This document shows, piece after piece, positions 24,787 to 57,345 of a stretch of DNA of 64,000 nt. Position 1 is the stretch's first letter; the number at the start of each line of letters is the position of its first letter. Below the pieces are notes generated by a model. It ran no database searches. It had not been told where the DNA came from and saw nothing but the letters and a program-made list of their open reading frames with translations. The stretch is from positions 62,001-126,000 of the forward strand of contig NC_014253.1 in NCBI RefSeq assembly GCF_000196655.1, in the 5' to 3' direction. Made by a program: the position numbers and the translations under genes. The DNA comes from Methanohalobium evestigatum Z-7303. GTDB taxonomy: Archaea; Halobacteriota; Methanosarcinia; Methanosarcinales; Methanosarcinaceae.

Positions 24787-24852
24787 TATAACTCCTCTCT
24801 ATTAACAGGATTAGTATTCCAGTAAGTATTCAGACGGCTGGTTTAAAAAATC

Positions 24853-24894
24853 TGTAATCTTCATCGATATATAAAAATGTATATCAAGATTACA
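24853..24894 (-). promoter_or_regulatory. Inverted-repeat operator around the MATE promoter
   Basis: TGTAATCTT at 24853-24861 and AAGATTACA at 24886-24894 form a perfect 9-bp inverted repeat. Between them, GATATA and TATATC pair around the TTTATATA box read on the minus strand, about 85 nt upstream of the MATE start. A repressor bound here would cover the TATA box. No regulator gene is adjacent. Confidence 0.45.
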
Positions 24895-24981
24895 ATATGT
24901 ACTCTACTGTTTTTGTGGATTAATCCCTAAAGTTTTCATCTTTATAAGGGTTTTGAATGATGTATATTGTGATATGTGAAT

Positions 24982-33644: not shown

Positions 33645-33804
33645 AATTAAACACCGGTGAATGACATTAAATAGTGCTGTACAGTATTTAAGTTTGTGTA
33701 GATGTTGATAATCTATATTATATATTTTTCCAATATCTAACTGTAAATAATGCACACAAATGTATTATATAAAAAAATCTATTAGATTATTATGGAGCCT
33801 GTTT

Positions 33805-34638
33805 ATGAAAAAAAGGATGGCATTAAAACTTGCATATATAGGAACTGAATATCATGGGTCACAAGTACAGCCCGAATTACCGACTATTGAGGGGGAACTG
33901 TTTAAATCTCTTAAAAATCTTGAAATTATAGATGATCCCAAATCAGCAAATTTTGTAAGTTCTGGAAGAACTGATACAGGGGTCCATTCACTTGGTCAGG
34001 TAGTGACGTTTGATACAGATAATCCAAGGCTTGCGGTACCCAGAGTAATCAATTCACAACTTCCGGAATCCATCTGGGCATGGGCATATGCTGTTGTTCC
34101 TGATGAGTTTAACCCAAGACATGGGGCTTTTAGTCGCAGATACCTGTATATAATGAGCGGTGAGGAGTACGATATATCAAGAATTAGAACGGCTTCTAAA
34201 TATCTAATAGGAACACATGATTTTGCCAATTTCTGTACACCTGTAAAGGGCAAATCTACTGTACGCACAGTACAAAGAATTAACATACGAGTAAAGGGAA
34301 CTCTCACTTTGATAGATATACAGGCGGACAGTTTCCTGTGGAAAATGGTACGAAAAATAGTAACAGCACTCATGATGGTCGGCTACGGAACAAGGGATAC
34401 TGAATGGCTGGAACAGATGCTAAATCCTGAATACTATGAGGAAGGTATAGAACCCGCTCCTTCATATGGGCTTATTTTGAAAGACGTGGATTACCTGCAG
34501 CCCATTGAATGGGAAGTGGATGATTATTCAATCCAAAAAGCACGCAACCAGTTACACCAGCATTTAATCCGCTACAGGGTGATGGCGGAAGTTCTTGAGC
34601 ATCTTGTACCACAGGAAAAACGTTATCATGAATTATGA
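33805..34638 (+). CDS. truA: tRNA pseudouridine synthase A
   Basis: 277 residues from ATG 33805, with GGAG 8 nt upstream; an ATG at 33760 adds 15 unconserved residues. The catalytic Asp57 lies in SSGRTDTGVHSLGQV, preceded by AYIGTEYHG. It makes pseudouridine at 38-40 of the anticodon stem. Divergent from purP. Confidence 0.94.
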   Translation: MKKRMALKLAYIGTEYHGSQVQPELPTIEGELFKSLKNLEIIDDPKSANFVSSGRTDTGVHSLGQVVTFDTDNPRLAVPRVINSQLPESIWAWAYAVVPDEFNPRHGAFSRRYLYIMSGEEYDISRIRTASKYLIGTHDFANFCTPVKGKSTVRTVQRINIRVKGTLTLIDIQADSFLWKMVRKIVTALMMVGYGTRDTEWLEQMLNPEYYEEGIEPAPSYGLILKDVDYLQPIEWEVDDYSIQKARNQLHQHLIRYRVMAEVLEHLVPQEKRYHEL

Positions 34639-34698
34639 TGAAAGTGATTTTTTATAATTATTACCCTTGAAGGTAACACATGTTGCCCAAATAAAGCC

Positions 34699-34707
34699 TT
34701 TTATATT
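34699..34707 (+). promoter_or_regulatory. TATA box of the candidate sRNA at 34729
   Basis: TTTTATATT is centred near 34703, about 26 nt upstream of the first base of the closing stem at 34729. It follows the truA stop by 60 nt, between two convergent genes, where no protein gene needs a promoter on this strand. Confidence 0.55.
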
Positions 34708-34728: not shown

Positions 34729-34840
34729 TTGCCCATTGTAATTACTTCCTCCTGTCCTCTATCTCGCCTAAAAATCTCCTGCCGCCTCTCTCAGGGGGAG
34801 TTATGTCCCATTATTTTTTAATTATATATGGGCAATTTTT
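34729..34840 (+). ncRNA. Candidate C/U-rich small RNA with anti-Shine-Dalgarno loop
   Basis: The ends pair: TTGCCCAT (34729-34736) with ATGGGCAA (34828-34835) and, after a small internal loop, TAATTA (34739-34744) with TAATTA (34819-34824). An inner hairpin pairs CTCCTG (34776-34781) with CAGGGG (34792-34797). The single-stranded part is C/U-rich and includes CTTCCTCCTG, the complement of a strong ribosome site. A TATA box lies 26 nt upstream and the oligo(T) run from 34836 would end transcription. Methanosarcina mazei has sRNAs that pair with ribosome sites; relation to any of them is untested. Confidence 0.5.
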
Positions 34841-34855
34841 ATTTTTTATACAGCA
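34836..34855 (+). terminator. Oligo(T) terminator following the candidate sRNA
   Basis: The T-rich run (TTTTTATTTTTTATA) directly follows the closing stem of the candidate sRNA. It overlaps the 3' end of the convergent trmG10 coding region. Confidence 0.45.
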
Positions 34856-35888
34856 CGGATATAACTCTTGTAAGACTTCGATGCACCCTCTGGTGATGTT
34901 CTTTATGAAGAACAAAACCTGCATCCTTAACAAGTTCTCTTACAGGATTACCTGTTACTATGACTGCATATTTTCCTTTTTTCAGGACACGATACATTTC
35001 TTTGAATGACATGGCATACAGATAGTTCATTGATTCGGCTTTTATCAGTGCTGATTTTCCGTATGGAGGGTCGGTAACAATCGCATCCATTGATTCATCT
35101 ACAAAGGGCAACCGGCATGCATCACCCATTAACAGCGAATAATCCAGATTCAGGTCATCAAGATTCATACATGCTCCTGCCATGATTTTATACTGGACTT
35201 CCAGACCAATGCAGTTAATACCCACAAGACCCGTTTCCATAAGAATACCTGCAGTTCCACAGAACGGGTCAAACAGTGTTTCTCCTGATTTGACCTTTGA
35301 CAGATTAACAACAGTTCGAGCCGTTCTCGGCATCAGTACACCGGGATAGAAGAATGGTCTTTTATGAGGTGCTCTGTCTTCAAAACAACTGCGGTCAACT
35401 TTTGCCACAACCGAGCCCATTATACATTTATCAGTAAGTATCAGACGGAATTCGATATCTGGATTTCTTAGATTCACACGATAGGATTTTTCATTGCCTT
35501 TCCTGTAGATACATCCTCCAACTTTTTTTTCAAGCTGTTCCCCGTTTATGGATGTATAATGTTTGACCTTATTTACACGTACTGCATATGTCTGTTCGGG
35601 TGTGATATGTTTGTTTATGTTGAGATTTTCAGTGGTTTTTATAATATCATCAAAATCGGTATCACAGATTCCAGCCACTTTTAGTATTGAATGCGACATT
35701 GCCAGACGATTTGAAACAGAATCCAGTTTATTAATAACCTCTTTATTGTTTTCTGAAATATCCACAACAAGGCACTGGTCAAAATGAGCATATTCACTAT
35801 ATTCAAGCTCTTCTACATCAAGGCATGCAAAAATTTCAAAGACAGGCAAGCTTTCATGCTCGCCCGATAATTCAAAAGCGTAAAGCAT
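34839..35888 (-). CDS. trmG10: tRNA (guanine(10)-N2)-dimethyltransferase
   Basis: 349 residues. An N-terminal ferredoxin-like/THUMP region (about 1-160) precedes a Rossmann methyltransferase with LFDPFCGTAGILMETGLVG (SAM loop) and catalytic TDPPYGKS. This is the archaeal Trm-G10/Trm11 family that methylates G10 of tRNA. Full length. Probably the first gene here on the minus strand after the DUF1805 gene 30 nt upstream. Confidence 0.92.
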   Translation of the reverse strand: MLYAFELSGEHESLPVFEIFACLDVEELEYSEYAHFDQCLVVDISENNKEVINKLDSVSNRLAMSHSILKVAGICDTDFDDIIKTTENLNINKHITPEQTYAVRVNKVKHYTSINGEQLEKKVGGCIYRKGNEKSYRVNLRNPDIEFRLILTDKCIMGSVVAKVDRSCFEDRAPHKRPFFYPGVLMPRTARTVVNLSKVKSGETLFDPFCGTAGILMETGLVGINCIGLEVQYKIMAGACMNLDDLNLDYSLLMGDACRLPFVDESMDAIVTDPPYGKSALIKAESMNYLYAMSFKEMYRVLKKGKYAVIVTGNPVRELVKDAGFVLHKEHHQRVHRSLTRVISVLYKK

Positions 35889-37263: not shown

Positions 37264-37415
37264 TATATCCTCCTTTAATTATAATCGGTGATTGTTATAT
37301 ATAACAATTTATAACCTATTAGTGATTTAAAACTTTTCGTTAAATGTTTTTGTTTATACTTAAAAGTGATGTAAGTCTGAATTTACGAAAGTGGGGCAAC
37401 AGGGGTACGTGAAAG

Positions 37416-37436
37416 CCAACGGTTTCTAACCGTTGG
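37416..37436 (+). repeat. Left-end palindrome of the tnpB element
   Basis: CCAACGGTT, loop TCT, AACCGTTGG: a perfect 9-bp stem about 85 nt before the tnpB start, as expected of the subterminal hairpins recognised by Y1 (TnpA) transposases. Confidence 0.7.
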
Positions 37437-37521
37437 ATGAAACAACCCCGTTGGTTATTGATTTGTCAACCATAATTTTTTTATTATTTCAGTTCATATT
37501 TTTCTTTTGAGGCGATGATAT

Positions 37522-38526
37522 TTGATATTAACTTATAAAATCAAACATGATCAGGATTTCTCTGATGAACTTGCTAAGGCTAAGCAAGTGGCAGAATATG
37601 GTATCAAATATCGTACCCGTTCATCGAAAGATGTCAAGCATATTGGGCTGAAATCAGCTATTTCTAATCAGATTCTCAAGAAGTATGCTAATGACAAATC
37701 TGCCAAGAAAGTGACAAATGTCAAATTAACTATACCTAATCAAGGTATAACTCTAAAGAAAAAAGAAAGAAAGATAAGGATAACTCCTTTAAATTTAACT
37801 CTGAAATACCATTTCCCTGATAATTTTGAAAAAATCAACCAGATTGAAGTCGGTGAAAAATACGTTTATGTATCGGTGACCGTACCTGAAAGAGAGCAAA
37901 TCGAACCAGAGAATTATCTGGGTGTCGATTTGAATACAACCGGACATATAGCTGTGATGTCGAACCCAAAGACTGGTAAAATCTGGAAACTGGGTAAAAA
38001 AGCACAGCATATACATCTGAAATATAAAAACGACCGTAGGAAACTACAGGTCAAAGGAAAATACAAGAAGGTTAAACAGGTCAATGACAGAGAGTCAAGG
38101 ATTGTCAGGGATCTGAACCATAAAATCAGTTCCAAGATAGTGGAAACCGCCGCTGCCAATAACTGTGGTATCAGGATGGAGAACCTGGAAGGTATAAGGG
38201 ATTCTGCAAAATGTAAAAAATCGTTCAAATACTCCCTGCACAGCTGGTCGTTCTATCAACTACAATTTATGTTGGAATACAAAGCCAGGCTGCTTGGAGT
38301 CAAAATTGAATTTGTAGAACCCGAATATACATCACAGGATTGCAGTAGATGTGGTTATCTGGGTATTAGAAACGGTGAAGCGTTCAAGTGTCCCCATTGT
38401 GGACACGTTGATCATGCGGACGCAAACGCGGCGTTCAATATAGCTATGCGCTCCGGTGATCAATGCGGTGCAGACAGAGATGCATCGTACGGGAGTACTG
38501 GCGCCCCGCAAGTGGCAACGGTGTGA
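37522..38526 (+). CDS. tnpB: TnpB RNA-guided nuclease (IS605 OrfB family), compact
   Basis: 334 residues from TTG 37522 with GAGG 9 nt upstream; an in-frame stop lies just before, so no longer form exists. The RuvC-like catalytic acids are intact: D136 (GVDLNTTG), E220 (MENLEG) and D300 (DADANAA). The zinc ribbon is C274, C277, C290, C293. It is shorter than the roughly 400-residue ISDra2 protein. TnpB proteins cut DNA guided by an RNA from the element's right end. No frameshift is visible, so it may be active. Confidence 0.92.
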   Translation: MILTYKIKHDQDFSDELAKAKQVAEYGIKYRTRSSKDVKHIGLKSAISNQILKKYANDKSAKKVTNVKLTIPNQGITLKKKERKIRITPLNLTLKYHFPDNFEKINQIEVGEKYVYVSVTVPEREQIEPENYLGVDLNTTGHIAVMSNPKTGKIWKLGKKAQHIHLKYKNDRRKLQVKGKYKKVKQVNDRESRIVRDLNHKISSKIVETAAANNCGIRMENLEGIRDSAKCKKSFKYSLHSWSFYQLQFMLEYKARLLGVKIEFVEPEYTSQDCSRCGYLGIRNGEAFKCPHCGHVDHADANAAFNIAMRSGDQCGADRDASYGSTGAPQVATV

Positions 38527-38570
38527 CGCCCACCGACCACAGAACCCAACGGATTTATCCGTTGGAGTAC
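38400..38570 (+). ncRNA. Predicted omega (right-end) RNA of TnpB
   Basis: In studied TnpB elements the guide RNA overlaps the 3' end of tnpB and ends at the right end, with the guide taken from flanking DNA. Here the tnpB 3' end, a GC-rich stretch around 38490-38545 and the hairpin CCAACGGAT/ATCCGTTGG (38546-38565) fit that layout. The 5' boundary is unknown. Confidence 0.4.
38546..38565 (+). repeat. Right-end palindrome of the tnpB element
   Basis: CCAACGGAT, loop TT, ATCCGTTGG. It shares its outer arm with the left-end hairpin and lies 20 nt after the tnpB stop, 6 nt before the mtnA stop codon. Confidence 0.7.
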
Positions 38571-38571
38571 G

Positions 38572-39591
38572 TCAGATCAGTACTTCATCCAGTAAAAACG
38601 GCGGGTGGAATACCCCATTTTCTGTAATTATAGCACTGATGTTTTCCATAGGTGTAGCATCAAATGCAGGGTTGTAAACATTTACATTTTCAGGGGCTAT
38701 CTGGACATTTCCAAAATACCGCAGTTCATCAGCGTTTCGTTGCTCTATTTTTACACTTCCTTCCCATCCCTTAAAATCAAAGGTTGATGTAGGAGCGGCA
38801 ACATAAAATGGGATTTCATGTTCTTTTGCTAACACTGAATGAGTGTATGTTCCTATTTTGTTAAATACGGCATCTTCGGTAATCCTATCGGCTCCTACAA
38901 TAACTTTGTCTATAGCTTCATGCCTTATGACATGTCCGGCCATAGAATCCGAGATTAATGTAACAGGTATATTATCCTGCATCAGTTCCCATGTAGTGAG
39001 TCTACTACCCTGATTCAATGGTCTGGTTTCACATGCAACTACTTTGATATTTTTTCCAGACTCAATAGCTGACCGGATAACTCCGAGAGCAGTACCCCAG
39101 TCAACGCAGGCAAGTTTTCCGGCGTTACAGTGGGTTAATACAGTGTCTCCATCTTCCAGCAATTTTGATCCGTGTTCTCCAATTTTTTTATTAATAGCGA
39201 CATCTTCATCAGCAATTTGTTTTGCTTCTTCTATTGCAATATTTTTCATTCCTTCAAAGTCGTAGGCATCAGAGGTGGCTTTAATAACTCTTTCCACACC
39301 CCATGCAAGGTTAACTGCAGTAGGTCGGGTGGCTTTAATAGTTTCTGCGGCTGACTGCAGGTCTTTTGTTAGGTTATCCATGTTATCGGTTTTACTTAAA
39401 ACAGCAGCAAGGGCAATACCATATCCACCGGCTGCACCCAGCGCAGGAGCCCCTCTTATGCGTAGAGATTTTATAGATTCACATAATGATTCGATTGTTT
39501 TGCATTCTATAACCTTATATTCACTTGGAAGTAAGGTCTGGTCAATTAATTTTATTGTATTGGATTCATCATTCCAGTCAATTGTCCTCAT
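38572..39591 (-). CDS. mtnA: S-methyl-5-thioribose-1-phosphate isomerase (aIF2B-like)
   Basis: 339 residues. Signatures: LRIRGAPALGAAGGYG, TRPTAVNLAWGVER, catalytic C155 in LTHCNAGKLA, ACETRPLNQGSRLTTWEL and catalytic D235 in VIVGADRITEDAV. It isomerises MTR-1-P in methionine salvage; in archaea related enzymes act on ribose-1,5-bisphosphate or 5-deoxyribose-1-P, and the exact substrate is not settled by sequence. Its 3' end abuts the right end of the tnpB element. Confidence 0.9.
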   Translation of the reverse strand: MRTIDWNDESNTIKLIDQTLLPSEYKVIECKTIESLCESIKSLRIRGAPALGAAGGYGIALAAVLSKTDNMDNLTKDLQSAAETIKATRPTAVNLAWGVERVIKATSDAYDFEGMKNIAIEEAKQIADEDVAINKKIGEHGSKLLEDGDTVLTHCNAGKLACVDWGTALGVIRSAIESGKNIKVVACETRPLNQGSRLTTWELMQDNIPVTLISDSMAGHVIRHEAIDKVIVGADRITEDAVFNKIGTYTHSVLAKEHEIPFYVAAPTSTFDFKGWEGSVKIEQRNADELRYFGNVQIAPENVNVYNPAFDATPMENISAIITENGVFHPPFLLDEVLI

Positions 39592-56862: not shown

Positions 56863-57109
56863 GATTATACATTATTGAAGTTACTGGTTAAACCCAAGCT
56901 CTTAGAGTCTGCTTGCTTTGGTTAAAACCACTCTCTGATGGATGTTATGATCTTTCAATTCGCTCATAATTTTTCTCGTTATCTACAAATATAGTATTAT
57001 CTCTTTGTATATATGTCTGGAACAGGTTCTTACCCCTTTCATGATATGGTCTGACTCTGTCAAAATCAAACATTATGCAATCTTGATGGGATTTGCTTAT
57101 GACGTTAAG
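56863..57109. other. Intergenic region upstream of the candidate RNA
   Basis: No gene is seen. Near 56887-56933 nested repeats GGTT...CCAAGC...GCTTTGG...AACC could fold, and they lie in the leader of the 91-residue protein on the minus strand. The remainder is AT-rich without further structure I can support. Confidence 0.35.
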
Positions 57110-57119
57110 TTTATATTTT
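57110..57119 (+). promoter_or_regulatory. TATA box of the candidate RNA at 57139
   Basis: TTTATATTTT is centred about 25 nt before 57139, the first base of the RNA's outer stem. Confidence 0.55.
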
Positions 57120-57138
57120 TTCTACACAATAATAGTAA

Positions 57139-57345
57139 TTGCGTATTGTAAAGTTCCTTACATGAGATCAGGGCTAAAAAAGCCTTTCTGTGAGTGTACA
57201 GATAACCCCAATACGCGACAATATGATAATGCGACAATGCCCGTCACGAGGGGTAACTGGAATTGACAGCGGAAAATCCAGAGGATGATATTCCGGAGTT
57301 AGTGCGTCGGGTTACAGCATTATCATAAAATCTCACAATTTTTTC
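57139..57345 (+). ncRNA. Candidate structured RNA of about 200 nt (or structured leader of the DUF167 gene)
   Basis: Two closed domains. Domain 1: GCGTATTG (57141-57148) pairs with CAATACGC (57209-57216), enclosing a GGCT-AAAAA-AGCC hairpin (57172-57184). Domain 2: TATGATAATGC (57222-57232) pairs with GCATTATCATA (57317-57327). Inside it CCCG (57240-57243) pairs with CGGG (57308-57311), and TAACTGGAAT (57254-57263) pairs with ATTCC and AGTTA (57290-57301) around a 2-nt bulge. A TATA box sits 25 nt upstream and a T6 run at about 57340-57345 follows. It does not look like tRNA, RNase P or SRP RNA. Confidence 0.5.

Follow-up and report, generated by a model that had tools for sequence, protein, structure and literature searches.

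A candidate C/U-rich small RNA between convergent genes of Methanohalobium, with predicted pairing to corrinoid-protein mRNAs of methylamine metabolism

Between the convergent genes truA and a TIGR01177 methyltransferase on the chromosome of the halophilic methanogen Methanohalobium (2,242,317 bases, in a genome of 2.41 Mb) lies a gap of 200 nt, and the question raised by this locus is whether the gap houses a gene for a small RNA (sRNA) and, if it does, which mRNAs such an RNA might meet. An earlier note on the 64,000-nt stretch of DNA analysed here (the window) had described a TATA box 26 nt upstream of a stem, a T-run right after it and a pyrimidine-rich interior with CTTCCTCCTG and CTCCTGCCGCC, all placed between truA and a trmG10-type gene. 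This description is borne out, as the centre of a TATA-like box was measured at 25.5 nt before 34729, TTTTT was found at 34836-34840, both interior motifs are present, and the two neighbouring families (TIGR00071 and TIGR01177) are confirmed (Table 1). The interior has a GC content of 54%, against a noncoding mean of 30%, which puts it in the top 1%; two copies of CTCCTG arise in 0.2% of shuffles, and a single CCTCCT in 19%. The TATA-like box alone is weak evidence for a promoter, since TTTATAT turns up at a rate of about 1.2 per kb of noncoding DNA on each strand. On the whole, the element is probably a real, transcribed sRNA gene, with its transcription and both ends deduced from the DNA.

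Table 1. Coordinates of the candidate sRNA gene, its parts, its neighbours and the segments predicted to pair with mRNAs (positions in the window)
Feature	Position	Strand	Basis or remark
truA (TIGR00071)	33760..34638	+	convergent neighbour; own T-tract near 34650, just past stop
TIGR01177/Trm-G10-like methyltransferase	34839..35888	-	convergent neighbour
TATA-like box TTTATATT	34700..34707	+	kept in sister species
Candidate sRNA gene, about 107-112 nt	34729..34840	+	ends inferred: 5' by TATA spacing, 3' by T-run
Closing stem, 5' arm TTGCCCATTGTAATTA	34729..34744	+	predicted fold
Inner stem, 5' side UUCCUCCUG, anti-SD-like, predicted paired	34746..34754	+	fold, accessibility
C/U-rich apical loop, 37 nt, predicted open	34755..34791	+	same sequence in sister
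Inner stem, 3' side CAGGGGGAG, sequesters first anti-SD motif	34792..34800	+	fold, accessibility
Closing stem, 3' arm TAATTATATATGGGCAA, one bulged base	34819..34835	+	predicted fold
T-run TTTTT, candidate 3' end	34836..34840	+	T6 in sister
Segment nt 14-27, complementary to mtmB1 SD	34742..34755	+	duplex prediction; not specific, and weak once opening cost is counted
Segment nt 26-42, complementary to mtmC1 mRNA -10..+6 (SD and AUG)	34754..34770	+	duplex prediction
Segment nt 38-52, complementary to mtbC1 SD to codon 2 (12 bp perfect, 3 more after bulge)	34766..34780	+	duplex prediction

The predicted fold of the plus strand has a minimum free energy of -24.8 kcal/mol (z -3.2), a value matched by none of 200 shuffles, and the minus strand folds less well (z -2.0). 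A closing stem had been proposed with 14 bp and one internal loop; the stem itself stands, and in the minimum-energy fold it is somewhat longer, with 16 pairs and one bulge. Beyond it, nine further pairs form between UUCCUCCUG and CAGGGGGAG; the apical loop then measures 37 nt, and 18 nt bulge out on the 3' side. The first of the two anti-Shine-Dalgarno motifs is therefore predicted to be paired. In particular, CTTCCTCCTG pairs with CAGGGGGAG at 34792-34800 and is fully open with a probability of only 0.026, and segments of the apical loop (CUCCUGCCGCC lies within it) are predicted open with probabilities of 0.33-0.38. The suggestion of several anti-Shine-Dalgarno loops, CTTCCTCCTG among them, thus had to be given up in favour of the apical loop as the one open stretch. 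A z of -3 or lower is found in 2.8% of noncoding 108-nt segments across the 64 kb, and the candidate fold is therefore unusual and not unique. Two other noncoding stretches of the window are structured: 24793-24960, between divergent genes, has the strongest noncoding fold of the window (z -3.65, plus strand) and no Rfam match even at E 1, and 57109-57325, in a divergent gap of 487 nt, has z values of -3.6 and -3.3 on the plus strand, is indel-rich relative to the sister species and also lacks an Rfam match.

The sister species is represented by a single Methanohalobium MAG, so that two closely related genomes in all were compared. It carries the element at the same location beside truA, and its version is predicted to fold in the same way and more stably (-27.5 kcal/mol, z -4.3), with no compensatory stem changes to speak of between the two genomes. 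A stable structure presenting an unpaired stretch complementary to a ribosome site is thus predicted in both species. Substitutions number 6 in the 56 nt of the truA-side spacer, 3 in the 142 nt running from the TATA-like box across the stem (Fisher p 0.017) and none in the 37 nt of the apical loop, at a divergence where 11.4% of four-fold sites have changed. Since both neighbours are convergent, neither needs a promoter here that could account for the low rate of change from TATA box to stem. Other noncoding DNA, which is rich in promoters, has changed at 4% of positions on average, and by this yardstick the element is not significantly conserved (p 0.18 over the 142 nt and 0.07 over 106 nt ending at 34800). 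The same alignment is contiguous across a stretch of about 1.2 kb (37387-38581) that is absent from the sister, where 37386 joins 38582, which marks this stretch as an insertion confined to one lineage, the sister showing the empty site; it contains a TnpB-like gene at 37522-38526 (Pfam Cas12f1-like TNB and OrfB_IS605).

Outside Methanohalobium, neither BLAST nor a covariance model of the candidate recovered a homologue among 112 Methanosarcinaceae genomes; two weak covariance matches (E 0.14 and 0.84 per genome) lack the loop sequence and were judged to be chance. A pattern scan of the genome collection matched only the same Methanohalobium MAG, and Rfam gave no match at gathering score, the best permissive one (E 0.89) lying on the minus strand. 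This absence beyond the genus implies an element that is young or fast-evolving. Had close relatives lost the stem together with the CU motifs, this would, by the earlier note, have counted against the candidate; both are kept within the genus, while beyond it the whole element is missing. The synteny check proposed for truA/trmG10 gave a similarly divided answer: the element is in place in the sister, and in other genera, which keep the convergent pair, the gap is short and plain or holds another gene, so that an element tied to conserved synteny was rejected. In several of these genera the gap contains an ORF with an HExxH-like motif (HEMAH, HEMVH or HELLH), by eye apparently a YgjP/SprT-like metallopeptidase, which is missing from this position in Methanohalobium.

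Among the alternatives, the one that survives best, itself unlikely, is that hairpin and T-run are a mere 3'-end element for truA or trmG10 transcripts that run into one another, acting as a terminator or exonuclease barrier and devoid of any function in trans. Archaeal terminators are T-tracts, and the presence of convergent genes on both sides, together with the T-run past the stem, is what such an explanation would expect. Nevertheless, truA already possesses a T-tract of its own, a terminator scan, which covers short bacterial hairpins only, found none, and a 3'-end element would have no use for a loop of 37 identical nucleotides or for a TATA-like box. Slightly less probable again is the view that this is intergenic DNA without function, such as the remains of an insertion flanked by terminal inverted repeats, its stem and C/U content being due to chance. 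The restriction to one genus, a conservation within the average noncoding range and arms that look like terminal inverted repeats would all fit; against this stand the two fold scores (z -3.2 and -4.3), a density of changes clearly below that of the adjacent spacer, and the fact that no target-site duplication was seen. Moreover, the element is single-copy in the genome, and its arm sequences have 93 matches against 100 in a reversed control, which also rules out a MITE or dispersed inverted repeat.

An improbable alternative is that the transcript is a small mRNA, with a leaderless, UUG-started frame of 30 codons (34729-34821) encoding a peptide alone or alongside an RNA function, like sRNA154 of Methanosarcina mazei. 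The frame is open and of the same length in the sister, where the one indel in the RNA body falls past its stop, and translated small ORFs are common among M. mazei sRNAs, sRNA154 included (PMC11456600). Yet the start is a UUG, two of three substitutions alter the amino acid (S7P and C26S), and the peptide has no Pfam match, two sequences being too few for a coding test. Least probable of all is a functional minus strand, as the 3' UTR, rich in purines and carrying Shine-Dalgarno-like motifs, of the trmG10-type gene or as a short ORF, for although that strand contains AGGAGG-N11-ATG and the stem is symmetric, its fold is the weaker and the mini-ORF is frameshifted in the sister, a comparison in which the plus-strand AUG frame at 34803 was likewise discarded for the loss of its ATG. 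A plus-strand RNA with an open, pyrimidine-rich loop that could pair with ribosome sites, as the earlier note had it, remains the best reading on the strength of the fold and its conservation in the sister; the particular targets named at the time do not hold up.

Possible targets were sought among 429 gene starts (-50 to +15) from 464 kb, or about a fifth of the genome, using short duplexes and counting the cost of opening both RNAs; an unlimited duplex length gave unrealistically long pairings. The top target of the 429 is at G000:C1:1025779(-), with a net energy of -19.8 kcal/mol, all others reaching -15.6 or weaker. This gene matches the pyl_corrinoid family (TIGR02370) and is followed at G000:C1:1025102 by mtmB with the expected in-frame amber (pyrrolysine) codon, and it is on these grounds identified as mtmC1, encoding the monomethylamine corrinoid protein. 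When the loop was dinucleotide-shuffled with the stems kept, none of 93 RNAs (0/30 and 0/63) reached -19.8 against any of the 429 starts. A second match concerns the start of mtbC1 (NF041607), where AGGAGAUUUUUA is a perfect 12-nt complement to loop nt 41-52, followed by GGC past a bulge, and this target site has the same sequence in the sister. A 12-nt match to the methylamine gene set, for which corrinoid-protein paralogues were gathered by homology, is attained by 2% of shuffles, and the real loop does not exceed 8 nt against 427 background genes; these shuffle frequencies are guides and not strict tests, as the gene set was chosen after mtmC1 had been seen. In the sister MAG the contigs end at the mtmCB loci, so that neither copy is contained in it. 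Judged by predicted duplexes, it is doubtful, if quite conceivable, that mtmC1 and mtbC1 are the true targets.

Ranked on net energy, several other corrinoid genes are among the best 2%. For the corrinoid set, a mean as extreme was obtained with 10 of 130 loop shuffles, and as many energies of -12 or lower with 12 of 130; of the methylamine genes tested, only two gain much from the real loop over shuffled ones, mtmC1 and, starting from a weak value, mtbC2, and mtmB1 and mtmC2 gain nothing. Most of the wider enrichment of methylamine genes comes from the ease with which ribosome sites that are strong and open pair with any C/U-rich loop, and the notion that all of them are specific targets was dropped. 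The shuffle controls therefore leave mtmC1 as the specific candidate, mtbC1 as a good second and the rest as generic. The targets proposed within the window fared poorly: Sec61-beta ranks about 56th of 429 by net pairing energy, and of the AGGAGGT sites within the window, that before cbiG included, none ranks better than 141st, better candidates being found outside the window. Defining targets by a CAGGAG before an ATG was also abandoned, as such sites are far too common (190, against 57 in the control).

The reading preferred here is that of a trans-acting sRNA which masks ribosome-binding sites, to which we would give a probability of roughly 45%, its pairing being predicted and repression following by inference. 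The RNA would have a TATA promoter of its own in the gap that separates the convergent genes, and its long closing stem, lengthened by CUUCCUCCUG:CAGGGGGAG, would present the unpaired C/U-rich loop. This loop may base-pair with mRNAs across the Shine-Dalgarno sequence and the start codon, and the ribosome would thereby be excluded. Of the genes covered, mtmC1, which heads a monomethylamine methyltransferase operon, would most likely be a specific target, followed by mtbC1, and other methylamine genes could possibly be reached through generic Shine-Dalgarno complementarity. A bolder proposal, and an unlikely one, more so than mtmC1 and mtbC1 being true targets, is direct translational control by a single sRNA, restricted to the genus, of several methylamine methyltransferase operons (mtmC1B1, mtbC1 and perhaps mttC), whose ribosome sites it would mask with its one C/U loop. 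If it were true, methylotrophic methanogenesis would possess a post-transcriptional switch that acts on the enzymes themselves and not, as with sRNA162, via a transcription factor.

Targets are known for only a few archaeal sRNAs, and the literature search found no sRNA described for Methanohalobium. The type of RNA proposed is already known, and the candidate is a new one, confined to its genus. One parallel is provided by the rhizobial alpha-r14 sRNAs (NfeR1), in which unpaired anti-Shine-Dalgarno motifs block translation starts (PMC10746234). These are bacterial RNAs with three hairpins that each carry CCUCCUCCC, whereas the candidate has a single hairpin in which one such motif is predicted paired and another open, and the likeness is one of mode only. 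Within M. mazei, with whose sRNAs the candidate was compared by description and through the covariance search of the family's genomes, loop 2 of sRNA154 carries an anti-RBS sequence that masks glnA2, and sRNA41 masks ribosome sites within polycistronic mRNAs (both reviewed in PMC5867862); ribosome-site masking would be shared with the candidate, but the targets belong to nitrogen metabolism and to ACDS. Another counterpart is sRNA162, whose 39-nt unpaired linker masks the ribosome site of MM2441 and which is found only in close relatives (PMC3510493). Like the proposed RNA, it is an intergenic methanoarchaeal sRNA of narrow distribution with an unpaired stretch for a ribosome site and a link to methylamines, although it is built of three stem-loops and a linker, and the candidate of a single hairpin with a large apical loop. 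Moreover, sRNA162 alters methylamine methyltransferase expression indirectly, via an ArsR-type regulator, the methyltransferases not being among its own predicted direct targets (PMC3510493). Should the reading proposed here be correct, the candidate would be a second case of ribosome-site masking tied to methylamine use in the Methanosarcinaceae, one that acts directly on corrinoid-protein mRNAs through exact base pairs that can be mutated.
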